A stretch of DNA of 64,000 bases from Pirellulales bacterium (GTDB lineage Bacteria; Planctomycetota; Planctomycetia; Pirellulales; Lacipirellulaceae), in the NCBI GenBank assembly GCA_019636345.1, contig JAHBXQ010000001.1, positions 310,001 to 374,000 on the forward strand, read 5' to 3'. Shown here in pieces: positions 1 through 25,205 of this stretch. The notes beneath the pieces were generated by a model. That model worked only from the letters and a program-made list of their open reading frames with translations, ran no database searches and was not told where the DNA came from. The position numbers were made by a program, and so were the translations under genes. Each line of letters opens with the position of its first letter. Within the stretch, counting starts at the first letter, position 1.

Positions 1-1734
1 ACCTTGGTAAATGGTGTCCAGTCCGTCGACAAATTCGGGCTCATTTGCCATCGACCGCCGTTGGCCTGGGGTAGCGACTCCCTTGAGCAGAGTTTGCCTT
101 GCGGCTTCGTTTCTCATCAGGACGAGAGCGGGCTCAAGGGCCGAAATTGAAACGGGTTTGCCCCATGCCTCAAGGAGTAACAGGATGTCGAGGATGGCAC
201 GTCCCTTCTCCACCTGGACCGCCGAAGCGGCTCTTGCTGGTTGCCCGAATATGCGTTCCAGCAGCACCGAAGCCGGTTCGTATTCACGGCCTTCGCGGCG
301 GGCCAGATCGGCTTCGGTTTCCACAAGCTCTCCGGCGAATGCCTTGGCTAGGACTGAATGCGAGATATTCTCTGCTGAAGCGGTAGCCTCCCTCACACGG
401 TCTTCGACCGAATCGATGACGCCGAGTAACCGCGTCATTCGTCGGACAATCTCTTCCTGCTCCTCTCTAGGGGGCAATGGCACTGGGATGGCCCTCGAAT
501 CGCGTACGTTGATTCGTGGCATGTCGAGACCAACGTACCGTTGCTTCATCCACTCTTGTGCGTACGGGCCTGCGAGGTAGGCGGCTAAGTATGTAGCGGA
601 AACCACATCGGAAGGACGGAGTCGCACAGTTCCCTGTGTCAGATTGACGCCATCGAGCCCAGGTGGCACAACCGCCACTCTGAGATTTCGGATTACGCAC
701 AGAAGCACATCGCCCTCTGCGATTTGTGAGCGAGAATGTTTCGCTGCGATTTCCGGGGCAGTCCTCGCGAGTTGCTCAACAAGGATTCGCCCTCGGTCGT
801 CGATGTCTTGCCCGCGAATGTAGGGAATTCCTTCGTCGACTTGTGGGCCTGGCAGAACGATGCCGTAGGTAATAACAGTGTCAGGCTCGACAAGTTCATC
901 TGTCCGACCGTATGCCCAGCTTTCTGGCACCTCCGGTAGACCAGTCAGCTCAATGTCTGATTCTGCCTTGTATCGCTTCTTCCAACCGTCACTCCGTGGG
1001 GCTCCGCCCTTTGCAGCTAGCTTCGCCAACTCTGCGGATTCCCAGGCCGCCTTGTGCTTCTTCCGCATTAGGCAGAGCAACGACTCGCCTGACTCAACAT
1101 TGGGATTTTCCTCACGCCAGTCGGCGGTGAGACGACCCGAGCAGGCGGCGGCGAGGACGGATTGGCGGAACTTCTTGAGGATGTCGGGCACGCGGTCGAG
1201 CCGCTCGCGGGCATTGTTCACCCGCGCGAGCAGAGCCTCGACCTTCGCCACGATTCGCTTCTGTTCGGCGAATGGGGGTAGTGGCAAGGGATACTTCGCC
1301 AAGTCGCCGAATGCCACTCGTGGCAGACTGTTCCCCTTCTGATGGTCTGTGGCGTATTGCACAAACGATGACTCAGAAAGGAATCGCAGAAGGTACTCGG
1401 GAAGAACGCCAGTAGATGGGCGGAAGACGAGAATGTCGGTCGAGCACACTCCGTCGAAGTCTGGGATGGTGACTTTGTTCAGATAGGGACGGAGCTTTCC
1501 GTAAAGCACGTCGCCGCGATGGAACACGGCCTTTGTGCTCTTCACGTCTGACGCTACTCCTTTTGATTCGATTCGATTTGTGCCAGACTCGATGTGCTCA
1601 AGACTGAGATAGGGGGCGTCTGGACACCGGGATGGTTCAATCTTCTCCTTCGAGGGAGAAACTAACTGTCCGAGCGGAAATGTGCCCCAACCCTCTGGCA
1701 GTATCCCGTTGCTGCCTTCATGGCCATCACTCAT
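1..1734 (-). CDS. hsdS: Type I restriction-modification specificity subunit HsdS (3' end beyond window)
   Basis: DNA-recognition subunit of a type I R-M enzyme; it directs HsdM and HsdR to a bipartite target. The open frame runs from ATG at 1734 to the window edge, 578 codons with no stop, so the C-terminus is missing. Two target-recognition domains can be placed. The first ends before a conserved region with LPPFAEQKRIV and a helical spacer (KVEALLARVNNARERLD). The second ends at LPLPPREEQEEIV followed by a second helical spacer. After the second spacer there is a further segment of more than 80 residues, longer than the roughly 400-450 aa usual for the family, which may be an added domain. 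The start overlaps the stop of the phosphatase-like gene upstream (ATGA), which indicates translational coupling. Confidence 0.93.
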   Translation of the reverse strand, partial: MSDGHEGSNGILPEGWGTFPLGQLVSPSKEKIEPSRCPDAPYLSLEHIESGTNRIESKGVASDVKSTKAVFHRGDVLYGKLRPYLNKVTIPDFDGVCSTDILVFRPSTGVLPEYLLRFLSESSFVQYATDHQKGNSLPRVAFGDLAKYPLPLPPFAEQKRIVAKVEALLARVNNARERLDRVPDILKKFRQSVLAAACSGRLTADWREENPNVESGESLLCLMRKKHKAAWESAELAKLAAKGGAPRSDGWKKRYKAESDIELTGLPEVPESWAYGRTDELVEPDTVITYGIVLPGPQVDEGIPYIRGQDIDDRGRILVEQLARTAPEIAAKHSRSQIAEGDVLLCVIRNLRVAVVPPGLDGVNLTQGTVRLRPSDVVSATYLAAYLAGPYAQEWMKQRYVGLDMPRINVRDSRAIPVPLPPREEQEEIVRRMTRLLGVIDSVEDRVREATASAENISHSVLAKAFAGELVETEADLARREGREYEPASVLLERIFGQPARAASAVQVEKGRAILDILLLLEAWGKPVSISALEPALVLMRNEAARQTLLKGVATPGQRRSMANEPEFVDGLDTIYQG

Positions 1735-2204
1735 TGGATTTCCTCCCAATGCTGCGAGAGCCACGACTGGATGCCACGCCCAGGATTGTAGGGGTACTGT
1801 TCACGGAAAGCCTGTGCCGCTGCTTCGTAAGAGTCGCTCGGCAACTCATCCGTCCGTTTCGCTAGATAGAGCAATGCCAGTGAGGGAGCACGCGACTCGC
1901 CTTGGTTGCAGTGAATGACGACTCGTCGCTCGGCAATGTGCTTGTCGACGAACGCAAGAAAGGCCTCGAATGACGGCATCATGAAGAGCGGAGCCGGTGG
2001 GTCGATCAGATTCAAGAACAAGTGGTAGTCTCGCTCCAACACCAGGTAGTTCGGGTGCGTGTTTGGCAAGCTACGGCTGGAGTAGCCGACGGCGGCACGA
2101 TGGCATGGTTCCTTGCAGGCATGCACCACCGCCACCGCACCGCTCGTGTCGAGCATACAAGCCGATTCGTTGCCAAAGAGCAGATTGGGAAGCACTTGTT
2201 GCAC
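1731..2204 (-). CDS. Dual-specificity/tyrosine phosphatase-like protein inside the hsd operon
   Basis: 157-aa protein with the cysteine phosphatase signature HCNQGESR: H98, nucleophile C99 and phosphate-binding R105, that is HCx5R, followed by the usual Ser/Ala and a hydrophobic helix. D68 in the LNLIDPP segment is a candidate general acid. By family knowledge such enzymes remove phosphate from Tyr or Ser/Thr, or sometimes from nucleotides or RNA ends; the substrate here is unknown. The start is GTG at 2204, overlapping the hsdM stop (TAGTG), and the stop overlaps the hsdS start, so it is locked into the operon between hsdM and hsdS. That position suggests it serves the restriction system, perhaps by switching activity. 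The phosphatase fold is well supported; the role is inference. Confidence 0.85.
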   Translation of the reverse strand: MQQVLPNLLFGNESACMLDTSGAVAVVHACKEPCHRAAVGYSSRSLPNTHPNYLVLERDYHLFLNLIDPPAPLFMMPSFEAFLAFVDKHIAERRVVIHCNQGESRAPSLALLYLAKRTDELPSDSYEAAAQAFREQYPYNPGRGIQSWLSQHWEEIQ

Positions 2205-3667
2205 TACGAACCACCATTCTCTAGCAAAGCGACAACGCCATTGAGTTCCAGTATCGCACTCTCCAACTCCGAGATTGCATCGGTGACGAGCTGCTCCGGC
2301 GGAGGAAGGTCGTCGGCGTCGTCGAGCGACTCATCTCGCAGCCACTTGAGGCTATCGAGCTTGAAGTCGCGTTCCTTTACTTCGGCGATACTGAACTTTC
2401 GCCAGCGGTCCTCTTTCGAGTCACTCGCCTTTCGCTTCGCCTGCCCATTGGGGTCGTTGCCATAGCATTTCTCGAACGCGGCGAAATGCTCTGCGGTGAG
2501 AGGGCGGTCCTTCTTCGTGAGGCCGGGGATGTTGGTGCGGTTGTCGTAAATCCAAACCGTCTCGGTCGGGTAGCCCTTGGTGAAGAAAACGACATTCGTC
2601 TTCGTGCCGGGGCTGTACGGCGTGAAGGTGCCGTTGGTGAGCCGGAGCACGGTGTGCAGGTCGCAGTCTTCGGCGATGATTTTGAAGACCTCGCCTGCCT
2701 GGTCGGCAAACAGGCAATTATCGGGCACGACGACCGCCGCCCGACCACCGGGCTTGAGCGTGGTGAGTACGTGCTGCAAGAAGTTGAGCTGCTTGTTGCT
2801 CGTGGCGATCGTGAAGTCGTCTCGCGTGGGTGCCTGATTCGCCCCGCGAGTGCCGAAGGGCGGGTTGGTGAGGATGCAATCGAACCGGTCACCCGGCGGT
2901 GGGTCGTAGATGGAGTCGCCCAGGCCGACATGAGGCTCCAGGTTGTGCAGGTAGAGATTCATCAGGGCCAGACGGCGAGGGCGAGCGACGAGGTCTTGGC
3001 CGTAGTAGGTGGAGGCCTTCACCCGCTTGGCGGTCGGTCGGTCGAGGTCGGCCCCGTTCTTCGTGACGCTCAGCAGCCACTCATACGCCGAGACAAGGAA
3101 CTCGCCCGTGCCGCAGGCGGGGTCGCAAATCTTGTAGTCCTTGGTTGTGCGAGGATCGGGCTTCATGCAGCGGACGATGGACTGGATGAGCAGTCGCGGC
3201 GTGAAGTACTGCCCGGCTCCCTTCTTCCCTTCCGCAGCCGCCTTTTCGAGCAGTCCCTCGAAGGCGTCTGCCTTGACGTTGACTTCGAGCGTCGTCCACT
3301 CGGTCTCGTCGACGGTGGTCAAGAGTTGCTTGAGGCTGGTCGGCTTGTTGAAACGCGACTGTGCCCCCGAGAAGATATCGCCGAGCAAGCCTTCTTGTTG
3401 ACCGAGTGCCCGCAATACGTTCGCGTAGTAGTCGGTCAGGTCGGTGCCTGCCTTGGACGTGAGGGCTGGCCAAGAGCAGTCGAGTACGGTTGTTTTCTTG
3501 GGGTCGTCGACCGCCCGCATCTTGACCTTGGTCAGGTCAATGCCCCGCTCGTTCGACATCTTGAGAAAGAGCAAGTAGGTAATTTGCTCGATGTAGTCTC
3601 CATAGTCGATGCCGTCATGGCGAAGCGTATGGCAGAAGCCCCAGAGTTTTTGGACAACGTCACTCAT
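2204..3667 (-). CDS. hsdM: Type I restriction-modification DNA methyltransferase subunit HsdM
   Basis: 487-aa N6-adenine methyltransferase of the type I system. The N-terminal helical region (VQKLWGFCHTLRHDGIDY) matches the HsdM N domain. The SAM-binding motif I (DPACGTGEFL) lies near residue 186 and the catalytic motif IV (TNPPFGTRG) near residue 266, both intact, so methylation activity is expected. ATG at 3667 is chosen over a GTG one codon earlier because an AGGA lies about eight bases upstream of it. It overlaps the end of the CBS-HEPN gene by 8 bp, and its stop overlaps the GTG of the phosphatase gene. All hsd genes read the same way, consistent with one transcript. Confidence 0.95.
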   Translation of the reverse strand: MSDVVQKLWGFCHTLRHDGIDYGDYIEQITYLLFLKMSNERGIDLTKVKMRAVDDPKKTTVLDCSWPALTSKAGTDLTDYYANVLRALGQQEGLLGDIFSGAQSRFNKPTSLKQLLTTVDETEWTTLEVNVKADAFEGLLEKAAAEGKKGAGQYFTPRLLIQSIVRCMKPDPRTTKDYKICDPACGTGEFLVSAYEWLLSVTKNGADLDRPTAKRVKASTYYGQDLVARPRRLALMNLYLHNLEPHVGLGDSIYDPPPGDRFDCILTNPPFGTRGANQAPTRDDFTIATSNKQLNFLQHVLTTLKPGGRAAVVVPDNCLFADQAGEVFKIIAEDCDLHTVLRLTNGTFTPYSPGTKTNVVFFTKGYPTETVWIYDNRTNIPGLTKKDRPLTAEHFAAFEKCYGNDPNGQAKRKASDSKEDRWRKFSIAEVKERDFKLDSLKWLRDESLDDADDLPPPEQLVTDAISELESAILELNGVVALLENGGS

Positions 3668-4748
3668 CACATTGTTCCTGGCTCACGGCTAAATCGCGAA
3701 GTTCTTGAATAAACCGTGAACTCTTTCGAAGCGTCTCAAGGTCATCTTCACCAATACCGTCAGGGTCGAAATGCATTACGTCATTGCGTATTAGATTCAC
3801 TCGCTCCATGTCATCGACAAAAGTCTTCCGGTCAATGGGCAGACCTAGCTTCTGCCAGTTAGCTGGATTCTGGAGAAGCCGGACGTATTCGCCGAACGTC
3901 AAGTCAGACACATCGCTTACTTCACGCTCCTCATCTCCTGGATTCTTGGCAGCTTTGAGTTCTTCTCGTGAGAACTTCCCATCGATTAGGCCACGAATGT
4001 GGTTCTCAATTTCGCTCAGTAGTAGAAATGGTCGACCAAGTTCATCAAGTGTCTCGCTCAGGTCCGCCACAGTAACAATTCCGCATATGCGTCTGTCCTT
4101 TGCACGTACAAGAACAAAATCGTTCTCTCTTATTCGCTCGATTACACGGAATAGCGAGTCATCTTCAGTAACGATCTCGACGGAAGAATCCATGCAGTCC
4201 TGCACAGTCTCGCATTGGTGCCCCAACCCCGTGCGCTTTGCTATCGACTGCCATGTGATTGCACCTTTAACCTCTCGTTCACTTGTCATTACCGGCAGTT
4301 GTGAAAAGTTATCACGAAGCATCACTGTTATCGCTTCCTGGAGATTCGCTGTTGGAGGAATACTCGCTGGTGCAGTGTTTGCGGCATCTAACTTGCCAAT
4401 CCGAAAGGCTGGGTCCTCAACCGCTCCTCCGACTAGGGCTTTGACAATGGTAGCATCCGCCACATCCTCCATATTTAGAACCGATTCAGCATTAGCTGTC
4501 TGAACCCTTTCTGCTTCAGTACTAGGTCGTACAAACGCAACGGATCCATCAAACCACGTGTGTTCAAAGTCGGGCTGTGTGGTGAGGTTGTGTTCTCGTA
4601 GGGTTGCCCTGATGTCGCGTACAACTCGCCAACCGCGTCGCTCGAAACCAAACCACCCCAGGAATTCACGCACAGTTGCTTGCAGAGGCTCATTCTTATC
4701 AGCCTGTTCCTCTGCGAGGTCGAGTTTCTCTTTGTGAATAGACATCAT
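3660..4748 (-). CDS. CBS-domain protein with C-terminal HEPN-like RNxxxH motif, within hsd operon
   Basis: About 362 aa when started at the ATG pair at 4748/4745; an upstream frame extension to 4895 would overlap hsdR and looks unrelated. Residues 1-100 form an unrecognised N-terminal domain with GWFGFERRGWRVVRDIR. The middle, about 110-235, looks like a tandem CBS pair (LQEAITVMLRDNFSQLPVM, then a repeat ending CGIVTVADLSETL). CBS pairs typically bind adenosyl ligands. The helical C-terminus carries LIRNDVMHFDPDGI, with R321-N322 and H326 fitting the Rx4-6H active-site motif of HEPN RNases. Lying between hsdR and hsdM recalls, by analogy only, PrrC-type anticodon nucleases linked to type I systems. 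CBS is supported; RNase activity is inferred. Confidence 0.8.
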   Translation of the reverse strand: MMSIHKEKLDLAEEQADKNEPLQATVREFLGWFGFERRGWRVVRDIRATLREHNLTTQPDFEHTWFDGSVAFVRPSTEAERVQTANAESVLNMEDVADATIVKALVGGAVEDPAFRIGKLDAANTAPASIPPTANLQEAITVMLRDNFSQLPVMTSEREVKGAITWQSIAKRTGLGHQCETVQDCMDSSVEIVTEDDSLFRVIERIRENDFVLVRAKDRRICGIVTVADLSETLDELGRPFLLLSEIENHIRGLIDGKFSREELKAAKNPGDEEREVSDVSDLTFGEYVRLLQNPANWQKLGLPIDRKTFVDDMERVNLIRNDVMHFDPDGIGEDDLETLRKSSRFIQELRDLAVSQEQCDE

Positions 4749-4767: not shown

Positions 4768-7464
4768 TTAGGCCGCAATGGCTGCGTTAAGTTCGGCGAG
4801 GAGTTCCTTGAGCTTGCCTTCGAAGACCCGATTCGCACGCACCCAACCGCCTGCCTGCTCGAAGACAGGCATGAACGAGAAGTCGTCTTCGTCAATTGAG
4901 AGGCTAGTTACCAAGTGATCGCGGATACGGTCGAGCCACTTTTGTTGTTCGTCGGTGAATGACTTGTTTTTGGTCAGCTTCGAGAAGGCACGGTTGATTC
5001 GCTCCTCGGCAGTCAGCAGCGGCTGGGCTTCGTCGGCCACGTGCTTGACCATCGAAATAATCTCCACAAGGGCCTTGTGGTAGTGCAGCTCGTGAGCCCG
5101 CTGAAGGTTCTCGATGGTGAACCGCTCAGGGGCAGTGGCCAGTTTGTCTTTGAGTTCCGAGAGGGCTGACGTGTTCCAGTCACGAGGCCGGTCGAGCAGA
5201 ATGCCGATGGCGTCCACCTTGTCGGTGTTCTCTTCGACGAACCGAGCGAAGGCGGCGAGGTAGTCTTCCGGCTTGTACTCGTTCCCCTTGCCGTCGCGGA
5301 TGAGGTATTCGCTGGTGACCGTGTCTTCGTGCTCCGTTGCCCGCACGAAGATTTTCTTGCGGCGGGGGTAGTTGACGAGCAGGTCTTGGAACCCCTGGTC
5401 ACGGAGCAGCTTCATCGTTTCAACAAAGTCGTCGTTCAGATTCCGTGGCAACGCACGGGCGTACTTGCCTACGTCCCCATCGGCAATGCCGAATGCTGCG
5501 AACGTCTCGCGGGCCGAGGCATCCATTTCCTTCTCAATCCGTTGCAGGCGTTTCACCAGACAGCGGACGTTGTAGTCGCGGTCGCGATTGCTCCAAATGT
5601 CGTCGATGATCTGCTGGATAGTGCGAGCGGGCCTATCGGGCGGTTCCGCCGTGATGCCGGTCGATTTGCGGAAGTATTCGAGCAATGTGCCGTCGAAGCA
5701 GTCGAAGACGACGAAGTGCGACTTATCGGGATGGTGCTCTCCCTTGCGGGTGCCGCGACCCATCATTTGCTCGAACAGGATGCGTGACTTCACCGGTCGC
5801 AGGAAGACGATGAACTCCAGGTCCGGGATATCGACGCCGGTGGTGAGCAAGTCGACCGTGACAGCAATCCCCGGATTCTTTCGATTGCGAAACTCACGTA
5901 TCTGCTGCAACGGCCGGTCGACTCGCCCTGTGATTTTGCGAACGAAGGCGTCGCCACGCCCAAAGACTTCGCGGCAGACTTCGACCAATTGGTCGCAGTG
6001 AGACGTGTGGGTCAGGTCGTTGGCGGCGAAGATGAGCGTCTTCGGGAATCGCCCGGTCGCCTGCTCGTGCTCGTCGGCGTACTTCTTCAGCTCTTGAGCT
6101 ATCTTGCGGTTGGAGTCAGGTGAGGTCACCACGCGTTCGACTTCGGTGTTCGCAAACTGGCGCTCATCTTCAAGGGCGTCGCGAGTCTCGGCCCCGCTGT
6201 CCGGGTCGATGATATCGACTTCCTCTCCTTCGTCGAGGAAGACTCCATTCATCCGCACGTCCGACTTCACACGCACGGCGTCGTAATCGACGAGAAAGCC
6301 CTCGCGGACGGCCCGCTCGTACTCGTAGCGGTAGACGACGTCCTTGAAGTAGGCTTTGGTGTGGGCGGCGGGCGTCGCCGTGAGCCCCACGCGGATCGCA
6401 TCGAAGTGGTTGAGCGTATCCCGCCATACAGAGACCTCGCCAGTGGTGTAACCGCGATGGCATTCGTCCGCCACGATGAGGTCGAAGGCGTGAATCGGTA
6501 TTTTGAGTTGCTCGGCATCGTCGTCGATTTCCTCTTCCGAGGTGGTCTGAAACACCGCTTGCCGCCCGAAGAGGTTGATGGTCATCCGTTGGATGGTGCA
6601 GACGTAGACAAAAGCATGACCTGGCGTCGGGTTCTCCAGGTAGTTCTTGGGCAATACCTTGGGGTCGAACGGCTCGTCGTCGCCAAAATCGCCCGTTTGA
6701 AACCGCTGGCTGTAGACTTCGTAGATGTGGTCGAACTTAAGGCCCGGCTCTGGCTCAAAGGCTGCGAACGCCCTCACCGCCTGGGCGGCTAAGGCACGTC
6801 GGTCGACCAAGAAGAGGATTCGTTTGGCCGCCCCCGACTTCATCAGCCGGTAAATCTGATTGACGGTCGTGAACGTCTTGCCGGTGCCGGTCGCCATGGC
6901 GACTAGCATCTGTCGCTTGCGGCCGATGATGGACTCTTCAACGGCGGCGTTCGCCTCGCCTTGGTATGGCCGCAGCCGGGGGTGATTGTTCGGAAGCCGC
7001 TGAAGCCTGGGGTAAGCTGCTTCGATATCGGTCGCCATGAGTTCCGCGAGTGCCGATGGCGTGTAGAAATCGGCAAGCTTGCGTGAGAGTTCTAGCTCGT
7101 GGCGAACGTCATGGAAGTAGACGACCTCCCCATTGGTTGAGAAGAGAAACGGGACGCGGAAGCCACGGTATTCCAATGGGCTGTCGGCGACGCCTTTTGA
7201 GTAGCGTTCGGCTTGCAGCAGAACACCTTGCGGGCCGAGGGAGAGCTTTTTTGCTTCGACGACGCCAAGCAATTGACCGTTGACGACAAGGGCGTAGTCG
7301 GCGGGACCGTTGGCCGTAGGATACTCCTCAATCGCGTGATGGGAGTACTCAGATAGCTCGTGGCCCTCCACGAATGGAACGACTTCCCAACCCAATGCCT
7401 TGAGCTTGGGGTCAATCCGCTTCTTGCGGGTGAGCCATTCGGATTCGTGAGAGGAGTCGGGCAC
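4768..7464 (-). CDS. hsdR: Type I restriction endonuclease/translocase subunit HsdR
   Basis: About 898-aa motor and nuclease subunit. The N-terminus holds a PD-(D/E)xK nuclease core (DYALVVNGQLLGVVEAKK, about residues 54-71). A superfamily 2 helicase follows, with Walker A MATGTGKT near residue 191, the DECH box (VADECHRG) near 333, and a late motif LLTTGVDIPDLEF. The C-terminal helical region resembles the EcoEI-type HsdR C-terminal domain. I place the start at GTG 7464 because GGAGGG lies just upstream and the in-frame extension to 7689 is low-complexity and overlaps the HTH gene. Only 19 bp separate it from the CBS-HEPN gene. No motif appears broken, so the system should be functional. Confidence 0.95.
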   Translation of the reverse strand: MPDSSHESEWLTRKKRIDPKLKALGWEVVPFVEGHELSEYSHHAIEEYPTANGPADYALVVNGQLLGVVEAKKLSLGPQGVLLQAERYSKGVADSPLEYRGFRVPFLFSTNGEVVYFHDVRHELELSRKLADFYTPSALAELMATDIEAAYPRLQRLPNNHPRLRPYQGEANAAVEESIIGRKRQMLVAMATGTGKTFTTVNQIYRLMKSGAAKRILFLVDRRALAAQAVRAFAAFEPEPGLKFDHIYEVYSQRFQTGDFGDDEPFDPKVLPKNYLENPTPGHAFVYVCTIQRMTINLFGRQAVFQTTSEEEIDDDAEQLKIPIHAFDLIVADECHRGYTTGEVSVWRDTLNHFDAIRVGLTATPAAHTKAYFKDVVYRYEYERAVREGFLVDYDAVRVKSDVRMNGVFLDEGEEVDIIDPDSGAETRDALEDERQFANTEVERVVTSPDSNRKIAQELKKYADEHEQATGRFPKTLIFAANDLTHTSHCDQLVEVCREVFGRGDAFVRKITGRVDRPLQQIREFRNRKNPGIAVTVDLLTTGVDIPDLEFIVFLRPVKSRILFEQMMGRGTRKGEHHPDKSHFVVFDCFDGTLLEYFRKSTGITAEPPDRPARTIQQIIDDIWSNRDRDYNVRCLVKRLQRIEKEMDASARETFAAFGIADGDVGKYARALPRNLNDDFVETMKLLRDQGFQDLLVNYPRRKKIFVRATEHEDTVTSEYLIRDGKGNEYKPEDYLAAFARFVEENTDKVDAIGILLDRPRDWNTSALSELKDKLATAPERFTIENLQRAHELHYHKALVEIISMVKHVADEAQPLLTAEERINRAFSKLTKNKSFTDEQQKWLDRIRDHLVTSLSIDEDDFSFMPVFEQAGGWVRANRVFEGKLKELLAELNAAIAA

Positions 7465-7483
7465 GTTCGCCCTCCGTCGAGGT

Positions 7484-7702
7484 CTATTTCGGCTTGCGTC
7501 GCTTCCTGGTCTTTTTCTCGGGTGTCTCGGCTTCGCTGAGCAGTGCGTCGAGTTCCTCTTTGGCGTAGAGCCGGTATCGGTTGATGGGATGGCGACGCTC
7601 CGCCAGCTTGCCACTCCGTCCCCAGTTCCGCAGCGTGTTCGGCGAGACGCCGAGGTACTCTGCGGCCTCCTTGATTCGGAGGTAGCCATCCAATTTGGGC
7701 AT
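7484..7702 (-). CDS. Small MerR/excisionase-type helix-turn-helix protein
   Basis: 72-aa DNA-binding protein. The sequence GYLRIKEAAEYLGVSPNTLRN followed by NRYRLYAKEELDALL is a typical winged-helix HTH_17/excisionase-like fold, with a lysine/arginine-rich tail. ATG at 7702 is chosen because GGAAG lies eight bases upstream; the frame is open further upstream to 7759 but that part has no family-like sequence. It is the first gene of the hsd operon, 19 bp before hsdR. It may act as a regulator of the restriction genes, comparable in role to controller proteins, or as an excision factor of the element. Confidence 0.8.
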   Translation of the reverse strand: MPKLDGYLRIKEAAEYLGVSPNTLRNWGRSGKLAERRHPINRYRLYAKEELDALLSEAETPEKKTRKRRKPK

Positions 7703-7740
7703 TGCTTCGCTTCCTGGCGTCAGGTCGGACTGTCGCAGTA

Positions 7741-7752
7741 GGTTAGCTAACC
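7741..7752. promoter_or_regulatory. Perfect 12-bp palindrome upstream of the hsd operon
   Basis: GGTTAGCTAACC is a perfect palindrome 38 bp before the HTH start. Its place in the divergent region between the HTH/hsd operon and the XRE gene makes it an operator candidate for one of the two HTH proteins. Confidence 0.4.
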
Positions 7753-7819
7753 TTACCAAACGTGGCTACGCGATGGAATCACCCACAGGGTCAAGCCGCC
7801 AACTCGCGAATGCGCGGCA

Positions 7820-7837: not shown

Positions 7838-7990
7838 CCATAACGGTTGAAGAACGCCGGGAGCCTCTTCACTCGACGAGGCAAAGGGCTCGACTGGTCG
7901 GGGGGGTTCGCTTAGGGCGGCTGTTTGTGGCATCCTCCCGCTCAAACGCCGTTTCAATTTCGAGGCGGTGCAATGTGACAGGAGTTGATT

Positions 7991-8461
7991 ATGAAACAGA
8001 GAAACGGCGCTGCGCCTGGTCGCGGCGCCAAAGTGGTGGAACTGAGACCGAAACCAGATCCGTCGGAGGAGTTGAAGCAGCTCCGCACGCCGCGTTACCT
8101 TTCGACCTTCGGGCGCGAAGCGTTGGGACGACTCATCGTCGACTGGCGGCTCGAACACGGGCTCTCGACAGCAGAACTCGCCGACGACGCGGGCTTCAGC
8201 GTCGAGGTTATCGAGCAGCTGGAGAAGGGGAGCGGCCTGCCTTCCGCAAGGCACCTATTGACGCTCAGCGAACTGATGGAACTCTCGTTCGAGAAGCTGC
8301 TGCGGCTGGTCGGCCTCGTGGAGGAGGAAGCGGACGAGCTGCACGACGCGGCGCTTCGATACCTCGCCCAGACCTCCAACTCCGCCCCAGGGAGTCTCGA
8401 ATCGACGCTCGAAACCTTGCGATTCCGCAAGCTGTTGTCCATCGATTCGGGACATCCATGA
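7991..8461 (+). CDS. XRE-family helix-turn-helix regulator
   Basis: 156-aa protein. Residues 45-105 form a lambda-repressor/XRE HTH: LIVDWRLEHGLSTAELADDAGFSVEVIEQLEKG. The first 40 residues are polar and proline-rich; the last 50 are helical and rich in acidic residues and leucine. ATG at 7991 has AGGAG six bases upstream, which favours it over TTG at 7985. It is divergent from the hsd operon and convergent with the coiled-coil gene beyond. It could repress the hsd operon, the mobilisation genes or itself. Target unknown. Confidence 0.82.
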   Translation: MKQRNGAAPGRGAKVVELRPKPDPSEELKQLRTPRYLSTFGREALGRLIVDWRLEHGLSTAELADDAGFSVEVIEQLEKGSGLPSARHLLTLSELMELSFEKLLRLVGLVEEEADELHDAALRYLAQTSNSAPGSLESTLETLRFRKLLSIDSGHP

Positions 8462-8564
8462 TCAAGTCACGGTACCCGACATGACCGAACGGCCCAGGCG
8501 TCCTCGCGACCGGCAGGGAGCAGGTTCTCGGAAGGAACCCGCCCCCATCGGTCGTTGCTCAAGC

Positions 8565-9947
8565 TTACGGCCTCAACATTTTCAGTTCGACGAGCAGTCC
8601 TCCGTGTTCGCGCAGAATCCTTTGGCCTTCGACGCACGGGTTGACCTTCTTTCCGTCGATGTCACGGAAAGTCTCCCCATGTCTCTCCCACGACTCGTGA
8701 GTCACGGGCCATCCGGGGCGGTCGTTCTCATCGTTCGCTACGGTAATCAGATACTCCATTGATTGACGAGTGCTCGCCAGGCATTCGCACTTCGCGAGCT
8801 GCGAAAGCGACATGGGATGCTTGCCGATCTCCTCGATTCTCCTTCCCTGGCCCAGCGCATTCGAGGCGGCCATGCTGCCGGGGGAGCAGAACGGTGCGAG
8901 CAACTGTTTGACCCGCGCACTTTGCAGGTACTTGATGAGGCGAGCCCTGGCCGCCAATTCTTCCGCGTCGAGCCGTTCTTGCTCCGCCCCTTCCTTGTCG
9001 ATGCCCGACAGGGTTCGTTCCATTTCAGCGGCGTCGAGCGTCGCCTGCTCCTGGCGCCTCACCCTGGCGGTCGTTAGCCGCTGCTCGGCCGCCTTAAAGT
9101 CCATTTCGGCCGCCAGAAGTTCGCGAGCCACCGCGGCCAACTTCTTCTTCGCTTCCACCTCGACCACGGCCCGCTTCTTGATGATCTCCACGTCGGCCGC
9201 CCGCTGGGCCGCTTCGGCTTCCACCGTCGCCTTCTCAATGGCGGACGTGTCCTGGTCCAGCTTCTCCAAGAGCTGCTCCGCCTGATAAGCGTCCATCGCC
9301 TGGCGAAGAGTCGCCTTCGTCGCGACCGCGTCGGCGCTACTCGCCGCTGCGTCTGCCGACGCCGTCTGTTCGAAGGCGTTGAGCAGGGCGACCTGCTTCT
9401 TGACCTTCGCGTAGTAGTCATTCACCCACGTCGCATCGGCGAGAATCGCCTTCGCGGTCTCGTTGTTCTCCGGGTCGAACTCTCCGAGCGTCGCGTTGTA
9501 CCCTTGCAGCACCTCGATGCTCTTGCCGAGGCGACGATAGCGTTCGGCGATGGCCTCCGGTGAGAAGCCCTTCTTGACCTCTTCCAACCGCAAGCACGCC
9601 TGCACCGCCTCTTGTTCGGTCGCGACGTAGCGCCCCAGGTTGCTCTGGAGCAGCTCGTTGAATCGGGTGCTGAACTCCTGATGGAGCTTGAGCAGCGTCG
9701 GTTGGCCCGGCGCCGGGTCCGAAGCGTTGACCAGGCTCCTGGCCTGCTCGGCCACGGCGACGAACTCGGCGAGCTTTGGGTCGCTCCCGAGCAGGTTCTT
9801 CTGCTCCTCCAACATCGACTGGCGGTAGTTCTCCAACCGGTCGGCAAACGTGGCGGGTCCCTTCGCTTCCTGAGCGTACAAGTTGCTCACAGCGAGAAGG
9901 CTGATGAAGCAGCCGCTGAGGGTGAACGCGGACAAGGCTCGGGGCAT
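8565..9947 (-). CDS. Secreted coiled-coil protein, unknown function
   Basis: 460 aa, opening with a probable Sec signal peptide (FTLSGCFISLLAVSNLYAQE, cleavage after YAQ). Two long helical or coiled-coil stretches follow, the second very rich in A/E/K/R (about residues 215-345, for example EVEAKKKLAAVARELLAAEM). The C-terminal 100 residues look globular and carry three cysteines (one in the CSPGS segment, two in CECLAS) plus an aromatic segment RPGWPVTHESWERHG. The ATG overlaps the stop of the membrane-anchored gene upstream (TAATG), so the two are translationally coupled. Standing directly behind the coupling protein and relaxase genes, the pair may be part of an envelope-spanning transfer structure. 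No family recognised. Confidence 0.72.
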   Translation of the reverse strand: MPRALSAFTLSGCFISLLAVSNLYAQEAKGPATFADRLENYRQSMLEEQKNLLGSDPKLAEFVAVAEQARSLVNASDPAPGQPTLLKLHQEFSTRFNELLQSNLGRYVATEQEAVQACLRLEEVKKGFSPEAIAERYRRLGKSIEVLQGYNATLGEFDPENNETAKAILADATWVNDYYAKVKKQVALLNAFEQTASADAAASSADAVATKATLRQAMDAYQAEQLLEKLDQDTSAIEKATVEAEAAQRAADVEIIKKRAVVEVEAKKKLAAVARELLAAEMDFKAAEQRLTTARVRRQEQATLDAAEMERTLSGIDKEGAEQERLDAEELAARARLIKYLQSARVKQLLAPFCSPGSMAASNALGQGRRIEEIGKHPMSLSQLAKCECLASTRQSMEYLITVANDENDRPGWPVTHESWERHGETFRDIDGKKVNPCVEGQRILREHGGLLVELKMLRP

Positions 9948-10666: not shown

Positions 10667-13396
10667 TCAGAAGTCGGGTTCGACAATCTCGTGTGCGGTT
10701 GCGTCGTCAGACTTGTCTTCTGGCTCCGCGTCACCACGCAGGGTCGCCAGCAGCTTCGGCGGCAGCCGGAGGCGGCTGATGTCTTGCGCTTCCCACTCGG
10801 GAAGATAGTCGAGCTGCTCCTCGGTCTTCTCGTGTTCTTCGTTGCGAGGCGGCGGAGGAAGCGGATCTTGCCTGCCGTCGCCCGCGAGCACGTCCTTCCA
10901 CATGCCGCCGTTAATTTCAGGGTCGGACTTAATGAAGGCGTGGAAACCTCCTTCAGGCGAGCCGCTCGGCAGGTCCGCAAAACCGCTCGGCGGCACCAGG
11001 TCGGTCTCGTGGTCGCTGGTTGTCTCCGAGGAGCTGGCCGAGGTGCTGGCGTCGCGTCCCGCGTTCAAGGTCGAGCCGGTTGTCAGGTTGGTCTTAGTGC
11101 GCCAGCCTTTACCGAAGAACTTCGACGACCAGGTGGCCAACTCGCTGTCGCACCGCAGCAGCGCCTTGTTGCCAAGTCCCATCAAGAAGCCTGCGTGCTT
11201 CTCGTTGGTGGCGGCCGCCTTTTGCTCAAACTTCAGCGCGTTCATCGTCGCGAGCACTAGCACTAGCCCCTTGGAGCGTCCCTTGTCCGCGATGCCGCTC
11301 AGCTCGTCGAGGTCAGCCATCATCTGTGCCTCGTCGATAAACAGCCAAGTGATCGGATTTTCGACCTCCGGACCGTCGAGCAGTTTGTCGGCCGCCAGGC
11401 GGATCAGGCCGCGATAGTACGAAGCCAGCACGTCGGCCGCCTGATGGCTCCCCGTCATCAGCAGGACCGGGGGTTCGCTCGGGACGCGACGGGCCCAATC
11501 CAGAACGGAAAAGTAGCGACCTTCCGCTTCGGCTTCCTTCGAAGCGCACGCCAGGGGAACGAAGTCATCGAGGTAAGCAATCAAGGTCTGGACGATGTTC
11601 CCCTTCGTCGTCCGGGTCTGGCTCAACAGCCGCTTGAAGCGGCGGCCACCGGGGCTTTGGCCAAGCACCGCGTCAAGGCTGTCGCAGCAGAGGCAGGCGG
11701 TAAGCACGTCCCGCAACCCCCACGACTCGGCCTGTCTGGAGAACGTCTCGACGATGGCCTGGAACAGGACCCGGCTGATTTTCGGCCAGAAGGGGTCCCG
11801 TGAGTCGTCCGGAAAGAGCATGTCGGCGAAGCGTCGGGTGGAGAGGACCCCGAGGTCACGCGAAATATTCCAAGCGGCTCCTCTGTCATCAAACGGATTG
11901 ATGATCTTGTACAGTGACTCATTAGCGGCGCCATACGAGTCGTCGAGCATGGTCACAAAGTCGCCCTTGGGGTCGTGGATCAGCACCCGCACACGCGGGT
12001 CCTGCAACGCCCGTTCGAGGACTTGCAGCAGCAGTTCCTTCATGAAGACCGATTTGCCGGAGCCGATATTCCCGTGAAAGAAGAAGTGCTGCGCGACATG
12101 CGACTCGCGGAGAGGGGCCCCGCCGAACCGAATCGCAGGGAGATTGACGGGGCGCCGATAGTCGGAGGCGATCAGTTGGTCCGCACGCTGCCGGTCGGCA
12201 AGCGAAAGCTCGCCAGGGATGGGCTCGGCTAGGTCTCCACGGTTGAGACGAAAGTCCTCCTCCAGTTTCGCGACGTACGCAAACCGACCGAACCCATCAG
12301 GGGCGCCGTCGTGGATTGGTTCCCACGAGTAGCGGACTTCTTTCCACTCGTCGCCGGTATGAAGCACCGTCCATGCAAAATGGCGCTCCCAGTAGTAGCC
12401 GAGAAAATCGACCTGAACGGTGTTGCCCCACTGCGAGACGACGATTTGTCCCCACGTGAATTTCTGGACGCCCCCCGGGTTGAGCAGCAGGTAGTGTCGC
12501 CCCAGAAGCGTCACCTGCCTGCTTTCCGTCAGCTCGACCGACTCAATCGGCAGCCGGTCTCCTAGCAGCCACCCCCCCAGCTTGATGTGGTCGAGGATGA
12601 CGCTGGTACCTAGTGCGTGCGTCGTACAGTGATACTGGGAGAGATTAAGCGGGCGAAACGGCTGGTGTTTACTCCATAGAGGTTCCGGAGAGGTTCTAAC
12701 CTCAGCCCAGCCCCGGTTTTCGTCGTAGACCCAGATAGCCGTTTTTTCACCGAAGCGGTCGAAGGTTCGCAGTCTCAGGTTCAATTGAGCGACGAAGCCA
12801 TCGGGGGCCGACTTAGTCAAGAACAGCTCGGACCCGTCGGCCAGCGTGTAGGTCCTTCCAAACTCCAGGACTCTCGCCTCGTCGTCGGAAAGGACGACTC
12901 GACCGCCTCGATCAAGCCTAATCGGGTAGTCGTATAAGTCCGCCTGATGGGACCCAAACAACTCGACGACAGCGTCGGGGTCGACGATCAATCTCGCGAC
13001 TCCCTCTTCCTCCGTGCCGTGTGGCTTCGGTGTCGAACTCGTCGGCGGATGCTTCGCCCCGATAGGCGCATACTCGATGCGATACCACACTCCGAACTCG
13101 TGAAGATAGGTGACCGCCTCGTGCGAGTCCGAGCGGTGAACGTCGATCTGATACCGACCATCGCCCCGAGGACCCGCCATCACGGCGGCGCCGTCCGTAA
13201 GTAGAGCGTGCGAAGGCAATCGGCCAAGTGAAACGCGACCCGCTTTGGTTTCAACTTCGACGCGGCCGTCGGCGTGCAGGTGTAGTTGAGGCTCAACAGC
13301 CGAGGTGACCGGCCAGCGCGCGTGAAGTCGCCTGCTATACGCCACAAGCTCGATGGGTAAACGAGTGTCGGAAGCAACTTGTGGTGGCGCGCTCAT
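10667..13396 (-). CDS. Type IV coupling protein-like ATPase (TraD/TrwB/HerA family)
   Basis: 909-aa P-loop ATPase that probably pumps the relaxase-DNA complex during transfer. The Walker A motif GNIGSGKS lies near residue 442, followed by VLIHDPKGDF; the Walker B motif WLFIDEAQMM lies near residue 687, then VLVLATMNALKFEQK, as in coupling proteins and HerA-like translocases. The first 400 residues form a beta-rich domain of unknown type with no clear transmembrane helix, unlike TraD, so it may work with the membrane-anchored protein downstream. The C-terminus (from about 790) is Ser/Thr-rich then acidic. The ATG overlaps the relaxase stop (ATGA), so both are coupled. A HerA-like role outside conjugation is possible but the neighbour argues against it. 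Confidence 0.85.
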   Translation of the reverse strand: MSAPPQVASDTRLPIELVAYSRRLHARWPVTSAVEPQLHLHADGRVEVETKAGRVSLGRLPSHALLTDGAAVMAGPRGDGRYQIDVHRSDSHEAVTYLHEFGVWYRIEYAPIGAKHPPTSSTPKPHGTEEEGVARLIVDPDAVVELFGSHQADLYDYPIRLDRGGRVVLSDDEARVLEFGRTYTLADGSELFLTKSAPDGFVAQLNLRLRTFDRFGEKTAIWVYDENRGWAEVRTSPEPLWSKHQPFRPLNLSQYHCTTHALGTSVILDHIKLGGWLLGDRLPIESVELTESRQVTLLGRHYLLLNPGGVQKFTWGQIVVSQWGNTVQVDFLGYYWERHFAWTVLHTGDEWKEVRYSWEPIHDGAPDGFGRFAYVAKLEEDFRLNRGDLAEPIPGELSLADRQRADQLIASDYRRPVNLPAIRFGGAPLRESHVAQHFFFHGNIGSGKSVFMKELLLQVLERALQDPRVRVLIHDPKGDFVTMLDDSYGAANESLYKIINPFDDRGAAWNISRDLGVLSTRRFADMLFPDDSRDPFWPKISRVLFQAIVETFSRQAESWGLRDVLTACLCCDSLDAVLGQSPGGRRFKRLLSQTRTTKGNIVQTLIAYLDDFVPLACASKEAEAEGRYFSVLDWARRVPSEPPVLLMTGSHQAADVLASYYRGLIRLAADKLLDGPEVENPITWLFIDEAQMMADLDELSGIADKGRSKGLVLVLATMNALKFEQKAAATNEKHAGFLMGLGNKALLRCDSELATWSSKFFGKGWRTKTNLTTGSTLNAGRDASTSASSSETTSDHETDLVPPSGFADLPSGSPEGGFHAFIKSDPEINGGMWKDVLAGDGRQDPLPPPPRNEEHEKTEEQLDYLPEWEAQDISRLRLPPKLLATLRGDAEPEDKSDDATAHEIVEPDF

Positions 13397-16218
13397 CGCT
13401 CAAGCTCCAGCGACCGCTCTTTCTCCTGCTCTTCGTTTGCGACCTCCTTCTCGCGGTCGAGCCCGAACACTTTCCGTCGCGTCCGCGACATCACTCGCGT
13501 GAGGTGACACTGCTTCAAGGATTCTTTTCCCTCGAAGACGTGCTTGAGCTTCTTGTCGTACTCCTCTTGCTGCTGGTCGTCCCGTTCAAGCTCGGCTTTG
13601 CTGCGGAGCGACAGCAGCGTGAGTTCGGCGCCCGCCTCACCTTCGCTGGTGAACAGCTCAGTCTTCTCGGATGCTCGCGAGAACTGCACGTAGGACAGCT
13701 CACGGTCCTGAGCGGGTCCTCCGGCCAGTACGTAGATGTTCTCAAACGTGCTGCCCTGCGCGGCGTGGGTCGTGACGGCGTACCCCAAGGCGATTTCCGC
13801 CTTGCGAATCGCTTTGAAAAGCGGGGGTCGTCCCTCCTCGGGACGCGTCATCACCTCCAACGGCACGTCGAGCGTCCGGCCGTCGTCCATCGCCACGCGG
13901 ATGCACTTGGCGAACGGATTGATGGAGAGAACCGTGCCGAACTGGCCGCGGTTGATTTGCTCGCGACGCGACACTTGTTTCTTGAGCCAAGTGTTCTTCG
14001 CGAAGTCCTCCACGACCTCGCCAACCGTTTCGGCGTCTCTATAGAAGTGGAGCGACTCGCGGAAGTGGACGCGGTCACCGGCGTACAACTTCTGCCCCTC
14101 GTGATTCGTGACGGCCGCCCCCAAGGTCCGTTGAACGGCGCCCAATCGCTCGGCCTGGAGCATCTCGTTGAGCGACCTGCGTTGCTCGTGCGTGCCGACG
14201 AGCACTTGGTTCTCCGCCGGGTCCCTCACCCCCTGTTCTTTCCACCGCGAGACGAGTTCTTCCATCGCTTCCCGTTCGGTCGCGCGGACGTGGACGCGTC
14301 CCCGCTCGGCGAGACTCCGCAGGGCGAGGTCCGCCTTGCCGCTCGCCAGGTTCACCGCGACCTCCACGTCCTCGGCTTGCTTCTGCCGCCAGACCTCGGT
14401 CAAGCGTTCTCCCGGTACAGCCCGGCTTGTGACGGTGAAGGCCCCGCCGTGGCCAATCGCCTGACATTGCTTCTCGTCGCCAACAAGACAGACGAGCGTC
14501 CCCTTCGCGCGCGCCAGGGACGCCAATCGGTAGAGCGAAGGGGTCTCGACCATCGCGGCTTCGTCGATGACGAGCACCGTGTTGGCGTCTAGCTGGGGAG
14601 TCTTCTTCTGGTCGGCTGAGTCGCGATGCGGCTCGCTCGCAGCCTTCGCGTTGTCGTGGAGCCATTTCGCGACGGTGAACGACTCGATCCCCGAGCTGTT
14701 CTCCAGCTCAAGCACAGCTCGCCCGGCGAGGGCGGCGCCGACGACCCGGCATCCCTCCTTCTCCCACGCGGTCTTCGCCGTGCGGAGCACGGTCGTCTTG
14801 CCGGTCCCCGCGTCCCCCGTCAGCACACGGACGCCACCCGCCACTTCGCCGCGCCGGGTCAGACCCTGGGTCAGGTAAGAGACCGCAAACCGCTGCTCCT
14901 CGGAGAGCGTGTGCTCCGTGGTCGACTCCTCGTTCTCGCGGAACACCGTGCGGAGCGTCGAGTTCTCTAGGCGATGGTGCGGGTCGCTGGCGCTCTGCTG
15001 GACGAGCGACGAGTACTCCCACTCCCCCTTGAGCACGCCTTGGGTCGACAGCACCCGCGATAGCTTTTCCTCGCCCAAGCTCACCAGCTCCCCCGACACG
15101 ATTTCTTCTTGGACGAGCGTCTCGATCTCTTTCGCGGAAACCCCTTGCGTCTGGAGCAGATTGGCGAGTTCGCGGTGCAGCTCGCGGACGGGGAACGAGC
15201 CCATCTCGCCCGCAAGCTCCTCGGCCGCCTCACGCAGAGCCAGGGCAGAGTCCTCCCGCGTGTAGGACGTTGCTAGCATCTTGCCCGTGACCTCTTTGAG
15301 GGTCTCGGTGGTGACGCCGAACGCTTTCAGCTCTTCCTTCCACTCCTCGAAGAGTTTGGGGCGGCTGACTTCTGCTTTCTCCGTCCGAGTCGATAGGGTC
15401 GCAATCTCGGCGGCTTCAGCCGTCTCGAATCCGACCTGCCGCAACTGCTCCTCGATCTTCTCGCGCCGTTTGGAGTAATGTTCGCAGGCCTCCTTCGCGA
15501 TGCCTTCGATGACAAACGAGAACCCGTTGTCGTCCATCGAGAGCTGAACGCCGAGCCGCCGGGCGAGTTGGGCCGCCAGCTCGGCTCGGTAGATGGCCCC
15601 GGCCGCCATCTTGTGGTCGAACAGCGGGCTCTCTACGTCGAGGATGCGTCCTTCGTCATCCTTGACCACGCGGCCGTAGAGTGTGCCGGTCGTGCCATCG
15701 CTTCGGACGCAAGCGTTGGCGATGACGCAGTGCGTGTGCAGGTGCGGGTCGCCCGCTCGCGAAGTGGCGTGCTCAAAAGTCGCAACGACCAGCTTCGCGT
15801 GCTCAACCTCCGAGCCTTGTTTGCCTCGCCGGGTATACGCGGCGTTCCGCTCTAGGTACTCGATGCCCGCCCGAACCGCTTCGGCCTGGCACTTCTGGAT
15901 TTCTTGCTGGACTTCCTGCGGGGCGGCCGCCCACAACACCGACACCGACTTGGGGGCCGAGAAGGTGAAGTCGAGCCCCGACTGCCGAGTCGGCTTGCCC
16001 GCGTTCTGGACCAGCTTGGTCTCGTGGTCGAGCGGGGAGAACCCGCGAAGCAACGACTTCAGCGCGTCGCGGTGGACCTTCTTGCAGTCCAGGGCGAAAT
16101 GCACAGCCCCTGACCCCAACCAGCGGCCGGGCGGCTCGCCCCCCTTGGTGTAGTACTCGTCTCGGGCGAGGTCCGTGAAGTACTTCCCGTCTCCAGTTAC
16201 GACGCTCGCAGAGAGCAT
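13393..16218 (-). CDS. MobF-family conjugative relaxase-helicase (TrwC/TraI type)
   Basis: 941-aa relaxase. The N-terminal TrwC domain has candidate nicking tyrosines Y22-Y23 (DEYYTKGG) and the metal-binding three-histidine motif HLHTHCVIAN near residue 161, preceded by DFTFSAPKSVSVLW. The second half is a RecD2/TraA-like helicase with Walker A TGDAGTGKTT near residue 471, VIDEAAMV, and a late motif ending TTHAAQGSTFENIYVLAG. Such enzymes nick at oriT, stay bound to the 5' end and unwind the transferred strand. All key residues are present. ATG 16218 has GGAG upstream. Downstream it couples to the ATPase gene, upstream lies a small DNA-binding gene; together they form the mobilisation operon. 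Confidence 0.96.
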   Translation of the reverse strand: MLSASVVTGDGKYFTDLARDEYYTKGGEPPGRWLGSGAVHFALDCKKVHRDALKSLLRGFSPLDHETKLVQNAGKPTRQSGLDFTFSAPKSVSVLWAAAPQEVQQEIQKCQAEAVRAGIEYLERNAAYTRRGKQGSEVEHAKLVVATFEHATSRAGDPHLHTHCVIANACVRSDGTTGTLYGRVVKDDEGRILDVESPLFDHKMAAGAIYRAELAAQLARRLGVQLSMDDNGFSFVIEGIAKEACEHYSKRREKIEEQLRQVGFETAEAAEIATLSTRTEKAEVSRPKLFEEWKEELKAFGVTTETLKEVTGKMLATSYTREDSALALREAAEELAGEMGSFPVRELHRELANLLQTQGVSAKEIETLVQEEIVSGELVSLGEEKLSRVLSTQGVLKGEWEYSSLVQQSASDPHHRLENSTLRTVFRENEESTTEHTLSEEQRFAVSYLTQGLTRRGEVAGGVRVLTGDAGTGKTTVLRTAKTAWEKEGCRVVGAALAGRAVLELENSSGIESFTVAKWLHDNAKAASEPHRDSADQKKTPQLDANTVLVIDEAAMVETPSLYRLASLARAKGTLVCLVGDEKQCQAIGHGGAFTVTSRAVPGERLTEVWRQKQAEDVEVAVNLASGKADLALRSLAERGRVHVRATEREAMEELVSRWKEQGVRDPAENQVLVGTHEQRRSLNEMLQAERLGAVQRTLGAAVTNHEGQKLYAGDRVHFRESLHFYRDAETVGEVVEDFAKNTWLKKQVSRREQINRGQFGTVLSINPFAKCIRVAMDDGRTLDVPLEVMTRPEEGRPPLFKAIRKAEIALGYAVTTHAAQGSTFENIYVLAGGPAQDRELSYVQFSRASEKTELFTSEGEAGAELTLLSLRSKAELERDDQQQEEYDKKLKHVFEGKESLKQCHLTRVMSRTRRKVFGLDREKEVANEEQEKERSLELER

Positions 16219-24337: not shown

Positions 24338-24397
24338 GGTTGAGGCTCCGGCGGCGTGCAGCCAAATTCCAGAACCTCAAGGGAAGAGAACCTCAGG
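24338..24397. repeat. 60-bp repeat, copy 2
   Basis: Nearly identical to 22921-22980. It overlaps the stop codon of ardC (24393-24395). On the minus strand the TTGAGG...CCTCAA stem is followed by CCTTTTC, so it may serve as a transcription terminator for ardC. Confidence 0.85.
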
Positions 24398-25205
24398 CGA
24401 CCTCACTCACTTCGAGCAACTCGACCGATTCGAGCGACTGAAGAATGAGCGTCGAGACCTTCTGCACCCGTTCGAGCGACTTGGAGAGCATCTCCGCGTC
24501 CCCCTTGTGCGAGCAGATGTAGTCGGCCGAGTGCTTCATCGCGTTGGCAAGCCCGGCGGCCCGCGTCACGACATAAGCAACCGACTCGGCCTCCAACTCC
24601 TTGACGCCACGAGAGAGCTGGAGTCGTTCCACCTTCTTGTGAAGCAGCTCGTGCCCCAGCTCGTGGGCCAAGGTGTTGAACTCCTCCGCGGGCGAAAGCC
24701 CTTCCCGTAACCCGATGCGTCCCCCGAGGGAGACACCGTAGGCGTCTGGGAAGAAGTCGTAGAAGACCGCGATGCCAAACGACATCACGACCTGGTGGAG
24801 CCGAGCCAGTAGCTCGCCCGGTTCCCCGGAGAGCCGGTTCGGCTCGGGCATCTCCTCCCCGTCGGTCTGCGAGACGTCGAACACATGGACCGCGCGGAAG
24901 CCAAATACTTCCCGCTCGTCACTCTCGTCCGCGTCTTTCTTGCCGACCATGGGGGCGAGGATGCAGATCCCCTTCTCACCCTTCTTGACGCTCCGCCCGT
25001 GCCGCTTCCAAGCATGGAAGCCCGCCACGAGGGTCGCGTCCGGCTTCTGCCGAGCGATCAGCATGCAGTTCCCGAACGAGTAGTTGTGGAACCGGCTCAT
25101 CGCATCGAGGTACTTTGCGTACTCCTCGGTGCGCCCCTGCTCAAGCTGGCTCGCCAACTCGGCCAGGGCCTGGTCGCTCATCTTCTTCGCATCATCTTTC
25201 TTCAT
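24393..25205 (-). CDS. ardC: ArdC-type antirestriction protein with metallopeptidase domain
   Basis: 270 aa. The N-terminal ArdC domain (FHNYSFGNCMLIARQKPDAT, then AWKRHGRSVKKGEKGICILAP) is a ssDNA-binding module. The C-terminal half holds an IrrE/ImmA-like zinc peptidase motif, NTLAHELGHELLH (HExxH). ArdC proteins protect incoming plasmid DNA from host restriction during conjugative entry. ATG 25205 has AAAGGAG upstream, lying in an inverted repeat. On an element that also encodes a full type I restriction system, it would guard the DNA on arrival in a new host while the element's own methylase accumulates. Symbol given by family resemblance. Confidence 0.9.
   Translation of the reverse strand: MKKDDAKKMSDQALAELASQLEQGRTEEYAKYLDAMSRFHNYSFGNCMLIARQKPDATLVAGFHAWKRHGRSVKKGEKGICILAPMVGKKDADESDEREVFGFRAVHVFDVSQTDGEEMPEPNRLSGEPGELLARLHQVVMSFGIAVFYDFFPDAYGVSLGGRIGLREGLSPAEEFNTLAHELGHELLHKKVERLQLSRGVKELEAESVAYVVTRAAGLANAMKHSADYICSHKGDAEMLSKSLERVQKVSTLILQSLESVELLEVSEVA

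Follow-up and report, generated by a model that had tools for sequence, protein, structure and literature searches.

We found that the gene lying between hsdR and hsdM in a complete type I restriction-modification operon encodes a protein that joins a CBS pair to a C-terminal HEPN domain and that, judged by its sequence, is a member of the DS-11 anti-phage family. The gap that holds this gene is a slot with exchangeable cassettes, the CBS-HEPN gene being one of them. The explanation we prefer, and hold to be probable, is that a DS-11-family HEPN RNase with an adenosine-ligand-sensing CBS pair sits in the operon as such a cassette; the protein probably works on its own and not under the control of the DNA cutter. 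Coordinates refer to the window, the 64,000-nucleotide stretch of DNA analyzed here, unless another locus is named.

Operon organization

The operon reads on the minus strand in the order MerR-like HTH gene, hsdR, CBS-HEPN, hsdM, phosphatase-like gene, hsdS, SMC-like ATPase gene, and OLD/PtuA/AriA-like ATPase gene (Table 1). The restriction-modification set is complete, with hsdR, hsdM, and hsdS each present and open; HsdR retains GTGKT and a D...EAK nuclease motif, and HsdM retains NPPF. The CBS-HEPN reading frame runs from ATG 4748 (alternatively 4745) to TGA 3660 and encodes 362 aa. It starts 19 nt past the hsdR stop, and its end overlaps the hsdM start by 8–11 nt, with the stop codon lying within the start of hsdM. 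At most junctions of the operon, the genes overlap or are separated by a few bases, as would fit a single transcript. A sequence-only reading of this DNA had placed a CBS-pair gene between hsdR and hsdM, and we confirmed its coordinates, minus strand, and CBS domains (PF00571); the same reading was right about hsdR, CBS-HEPN, and hsdM as operon members and left out hsdS, the upstream MerR-like gene, and the phosphatase-like gene between hsdM and hsdS. The existence of hsdS rules out the CBS-HEPN protein as its replacement. The phosphatase-like gene retains an intact HCX5R motif, marks a second site for cargo in the operon, and gave no match to any defense family.

Table 1. Features of the operon, the CBS-HEPN protein, and the adjoining conjugation genes (window coordinates)
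Feature	Coordinates	Strand	Basis or remark
hsdS, 5' part	1..1734	–	Methylase_S E 2e-18; runs past window edge to L009 9800
Dual-specificity phosphatase-like gene, hsdM/hsdS slot	1731..2204	–	DSPc E 5e-5; HCNQGESR motif
hsdM, N6-adenine methylase	2204..3670	–	start ATG 3667 or GTG 3670; N6_Mtase E 3e-57, HsdM_N, PADLOC MTase_I E 3e-158
CBS-HEPN gene, DS-11 anti-phage family	3660..4748	–	NF053863 E 3.4e-118, Pfam CBS, AF2
HEPN active-site motif R321-N-D-V-M-H326	3771..3788	–	fits Rx4-6H with polar residue after R
Second HEPN motif Ex3R, E248-R252	3993..4007	–	invariant 61/61
CBS2 nucleotide-site motif G223-x2-T226-x2-D229	4062..4082	–	invariant 61/61
F148, counterpart of DS-11 Y157 (adenine contact)	4305..4307	–	PMC13092281; F or Y in 61/61 homologs
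hsdR, EcoEI type, GTG start	4768..7464	–	EcoEI_R_C, ResIII, HSDR_N; nuclease and motor motifs present
MerR/excisionase-like HTH gene, operon head, possible regulator	7484..7702	–	HTH_17 E 7e-13; start 7759 also possible
TrwB-type coupling protein	10667..13396	–	
TrwC relaxase-helicase	13393..16218	–	

Family and domains of the CBS-HEPN protein

The NCBIfam model NF053863 ("DS11_antiphage") matches the protein over its whole length (model positions 1–305 of 305; E 3e-118) with 394 bits, the curated cut-off being 260 bits. The layout comprises an N-terminal domain (residues 1–75), a CBS pair (about 121–240; PF00571, two stretches, E 1.3e-15), and a HEPN domain (about 236–362); Pfam recognizes the CBS pair only, and PADLOC gave no match. 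The second CBS stretch carries a motif of the G-x2-T-x2-D type, which in CBS domains generally has a role in adenosine-ligand binding. DS-11 was validated in Escherichia coli in 2026 as a one-protein anti-phage system (DefensePredictor, PMC13092281); it combines CBS and HEPN in one protein, is predicted to form a dimer with ATP, and loses defense with Y157A in the CBS site and with mutations of the HEPN active site (PMC13092281). The window protein has the domain order, the aromatic position of the adenine site, and the HEPN motif in common with DS-11. It differs in carrying F148 where DS-11 has Y157, and phenylalanine is more frequent than tyrosine across the family (39 of 61 homologs), while the homolog from E. 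coli KE47 has Y at 157, like DS-11.

The HEPN signatures defined in 2013 are Rx4-6H with a polar residue following R, plus Ex3[KR] (PMC3710099), and both are found in the C-terminal domain. The sequence-only reading had pointed to RNDVMH and gave R321 and H326 their correct positions; R, N, and H proved invariant in all 61 aligned homologs, which argues against a chance match, although the figure is somewhat inflated because one of the two patterns of the homolog search was RN[DN][VM]MH itself. Loss of R and H among homologs, which that reading had named as evidence against itself, was not seen. Five homologs recovered without the motif pattern still have R and H (RNNMMH in L014, RNDVFH in L015, RNEVMH in L105, RNTIMH in L037, and RNEIMH in L086), and the invariant residues E248, R252, T226, and D229 lie outside the search patterns, the Ex3[KR] signature having had no part in the selection.

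The AlphaFold2 model has a mean pLDDT of 90.7 for the whole protein and 92.8 for the C-terminal domain, which forms six helices over 127 aa, all-helical as expected for HEPN (about 100–130 aa). Foldseek with the C-terminal model returned nothing significant (best E 0.35; HepS at rank 10, HepT at rank 12), and with the whole model gave CBS matches only, among the matches listed. Thus, the HEPN assignment rests on motifs and family and not on the Foldseek search, which gave the C-terminal domain no significant solved relative, and we count the missing HEPN match against our preferred explanation. The best PDB sequence match was chain 5 of 9znf, a CBS-domain protein of 339 aa, with the similarity confined to the CBS part (E 4e-8).

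Distribution of homologs

Our sample of 93 usable proteins came from 80 genome loci of many phyla, 6 viral-contig loci, and plasmid and planctomycete matches; a search of annotated phages for the CBS-HEPN protein found none. Most homologs are solitary, adjoining housekeeping or unrelated genes. The sequence-only reading would have counted homologs mostly outside restriction loci against itself, and about 81 of the 93 do lie outside methylase operons, with about 12 inside. Those associated with type I operons are the window copy, L014/L145 and L045 (both in the order hsdR-CBS-HEPN-hsdM), L093 (directly ahead of hsdM), and L037 (one gene off); others occur in DISARM/Dpd/Hma-like operons (L083, L086, L015/L146, and L105/L147) or with IIG-like methylases (L034, L043, and L044). 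Of the 11 adenine methylases recovered in the flanks, 4 were co-directional with the CBS-HEPN gene and at most 50 bp from it, against 0.07 expected under uniform placement (0 of 20,000 placements). We count this excess against our preferred explanation, as it could mean a functional rather than an opportunistic link.

On a larger tree, the methylase-operon label (a set of 14, in which the assignment of L087 and L088 was loose) was only weakly clustered and needs 11 changes, at least 6 of them forced. For the three CBS-HEPN proteins in the hsd slot, AU tests (p 0.25 for the window copy with L045, 0.53 for the window copy with L014, and 0.18 for all three) do not separate single from multiple entry, so we make no claim of independent entry. 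Elsewhere, nucleotide comparison indicates that the CBS-HEPN gene moves alone: L083, in a DISARM/Dpd-like operon, and the solitary L092 have in common only a 1.1-kb block of 80% nucleotide identity, which covers the CBS-HEPN gene.

Cassette exchange between hsdR and hsdM

Among 16 operons of the window's hsd lineage, the slot holds a CBS-HEPN gene in 3, other genes in 6, and nothing in 6 (L138, L141, L142, L143, L144, and L158), with 1 truncated. The closest comparison is provided by G002 and G035, whose HsdR is 83% and HsdM 92–93% identical to those of the window and whose slot is filled by either an ORF of 88 aa or a gene resembling DUF559 endonucleases. In the other operons of the lineage, with HsdM 63–75% identical to that of the window, the slot is empty, as listed above, or contains a DUF4365/XopAX-like gene (L136), a FEAKG-motif protein (L137), DUF6308 (L140), or the L139 gene described below. 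The CBS-HEPN gene is foreign in composition relative to its neighbors (GC3 0.46 versus 0.75 for hsdR and 0.79 for hsdM), and the in-slot CBS-HEPN proteins are 30–43% identical, versus 68–73% for their HsdM partners.

The hsdM/hsdS gap also varies in content, with the phosphatase-like gene in the window, a PIN-like gene assigned by eye in L142, an HNH gene in L159, and other ORFs in L158. In L139, from another planctomycete, a different small protein occupies the hsdR/hsdM slot (7077–7766, minus strand) and carries a HEPN-like RHFLAH (motif only). In L157 (about 7885–8700), GC-rich palindromic repeats (CCCTCCCCGGCCCTGAGAGGCC...) flank the DUF559 slot gene and are perhaps a means of insertion.

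Relation to the Hsd system

According to our preferred explanation, the CBS-HEPN protein would dimerize and its CBS pair would bind an adenine derivative; an infection-linked shift in that ligand would turn on the HEPN RNase, and cleavage of RNA would halt phage growth. Hsd would form a first layer by restricting unmodified DNA, and the CBS-HEPN protein a second, largely independent layer that has promoter, translation coupling, and transfer in common with Hsd. For the window protein, RNase activity, trigger, and independence from Hsd are what we infer. Membership in DS-11, together with the DS-11 mutant data, makes the RNase-defense part well supported and already known; in this respect, the sequence-only proposal of a nucleotide-sensing CBS-HEPN RNase in phage defense stands. 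Its further proposal, that the RNase fires once the Hsd complex is disabled, is not supported, given the solitary homologs and the one-protein DS-11 system.

That further proposal follows PrrC: the Hsd complex would bind the CBS-HEPN protein and keep it silent until anti-restriction proteins of a phage release it. The position of the gene within hsd and its overlap with the hsdM start fit such an arrangement, as do the PrrC precedent, the broader idea put forward for HEPN proteins linked to RM (PMC3710099), and the order hsdR-CBS-HEPN-hsdM seen three times within one hsd lineage. However, relatives at 92–93% HsdM identity lack the CBS-HEPN gene, which implies that Hsd functions without need of it, and the slot copies have diverged from one another without visible co-evolution with Hsd. 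It is for these reasons, and for the solitary majority and the one-protein nature of DS-11, that we prefer layered defense over Hsd control, which we consider unlikely, while leaving room for a special Hsd link in the window operon.

The methylase adjacency could instead be functional if the ligand read by the CBS pair is SAM, MTA, or ATP/AMP, such that a phage SAM lyase, which converts SAM to MTA and so disarms the methylase-based system, triggers the RNase. CBS pairs do bind SAM and MTA (MJ0100, 3kpb/3kpc; sequence E 1.5e-5, fold TMt 0.84), phage SAM lyases produce MTA and neutralize RM and BREX (PMC12255297), and the breakdown of cofactors has been put forward as a signal still without an assigned system (PMC12707154). 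Yet OpuCA/DarB-type binders of c-di-AMP and AMP match the CBS pair equally well, and most homologs lie away from methylases. This reading is attractive and testable and draws on analogy; we judge it improbable, and likewise the wider form in which the protein would guard the methylase cofactor economy, firing on a SAM-to-MTA or ATP/AMP shift brought about by phage anti-restriction, and would have been acquired repeatedly for that purpose by type I, DISARM/Dpd-like, and Hma-like operons. Very unlikely is a passenger or maintenance gene that persists by horizontal transfer on a conjugative element and gives the host no defense: foreign composition, a slot that tolerates unrelated genes, and the adjacent TrwC and TrwB genes would suit it, but the catalytic and ligand residues are all intact, the gene is tightly spaced and overlaps hsdM, and several other slot genes resemble nucleases.

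Comparison with known systems

PrrC (EcoprrI) and RloC resemble the window protein as HEPN RNases, and PrrC is likewise embedded in hsd. As the sequence-only reading noted, the domain layout is unlike that of PrrC, whose sensor is an ABC-ATPase in place of the CBS pair; control by Hsd has been shown for PrrC, whereas for the window CBS-HEPN protein the indirect evidence speaks against it. TgvAB, in a type I operon of Vibrio cholerae VPI-2, is also nested in hsd and consists of independent anti-phage genes active without HsdR nuclease activity, but it is a type IV GmrSD-like DNA nuclease and not an RNase (PMC11411939). The R-linked ORFs of Campylobacter hsd loci (e.g., RloF) are variable genes between hsd genes as well, although both the genes and the hsd lineage differ from those of the window. 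CBS-HEPN fusions of like architecture were predicted in 2013 with nucleotide sensing proposed, but as regulators of RNA stability and without a link to type I operons (PMC3710099). DS-11 itself was described as a one-gene system, whereas the window copy lies within a type I operon.

HEPN genes in R-M operons were proposed as back-up defense in 2013, across at least 16 HEPN clades (PMC3710099), and independent defense genes embedded in a type I operon were shown in 2024 (PMC11411939). Our literature searches on the combination of CBS, type I RM, and HEPN gave no direct precedent. New here are the DS-11 family in the hsdR/hsdM slot, the natural swap at 92–93% HsdM identity, and the recurrence in several types of methylase operon; some of this may already be in a 2024 preprint on embedded defenses that both PMC13092281 and PMC11411939 cite. 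The finding of a newly validated defense RNase next to genes for methylases and helicases, in operons of several types, narrows down its candidate triggers to phage-perturbed cofactors of the adenosine type, and near-identical operons with and without the CBS-HEPN gene offer a natural control for the dependence of embedded defense genes on their host system.

Neighboring genes

The R-M operon adjoins the TrwC relaxase and TrwB coupling protein genes, so the whole is probably carried on a conjugative element. A ParA-like gene accompanies these conjugation genes at 26041–26991. The gene at 24393–25205 (minus strand) reads as one for an ArdC-type anti-restriction protein and would share its element with the type I system. 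To the left of the window, straight after hsdS, an SMC-like ATPase gene (L009 9825–7867, minus strand) has no Pfam family and weak similarity to LmuB, and beyond it lies an OLD/PtuA/AriA-like ATPase gene (L009 7815–5242, minus strand); the pair is possibly a further defense module.
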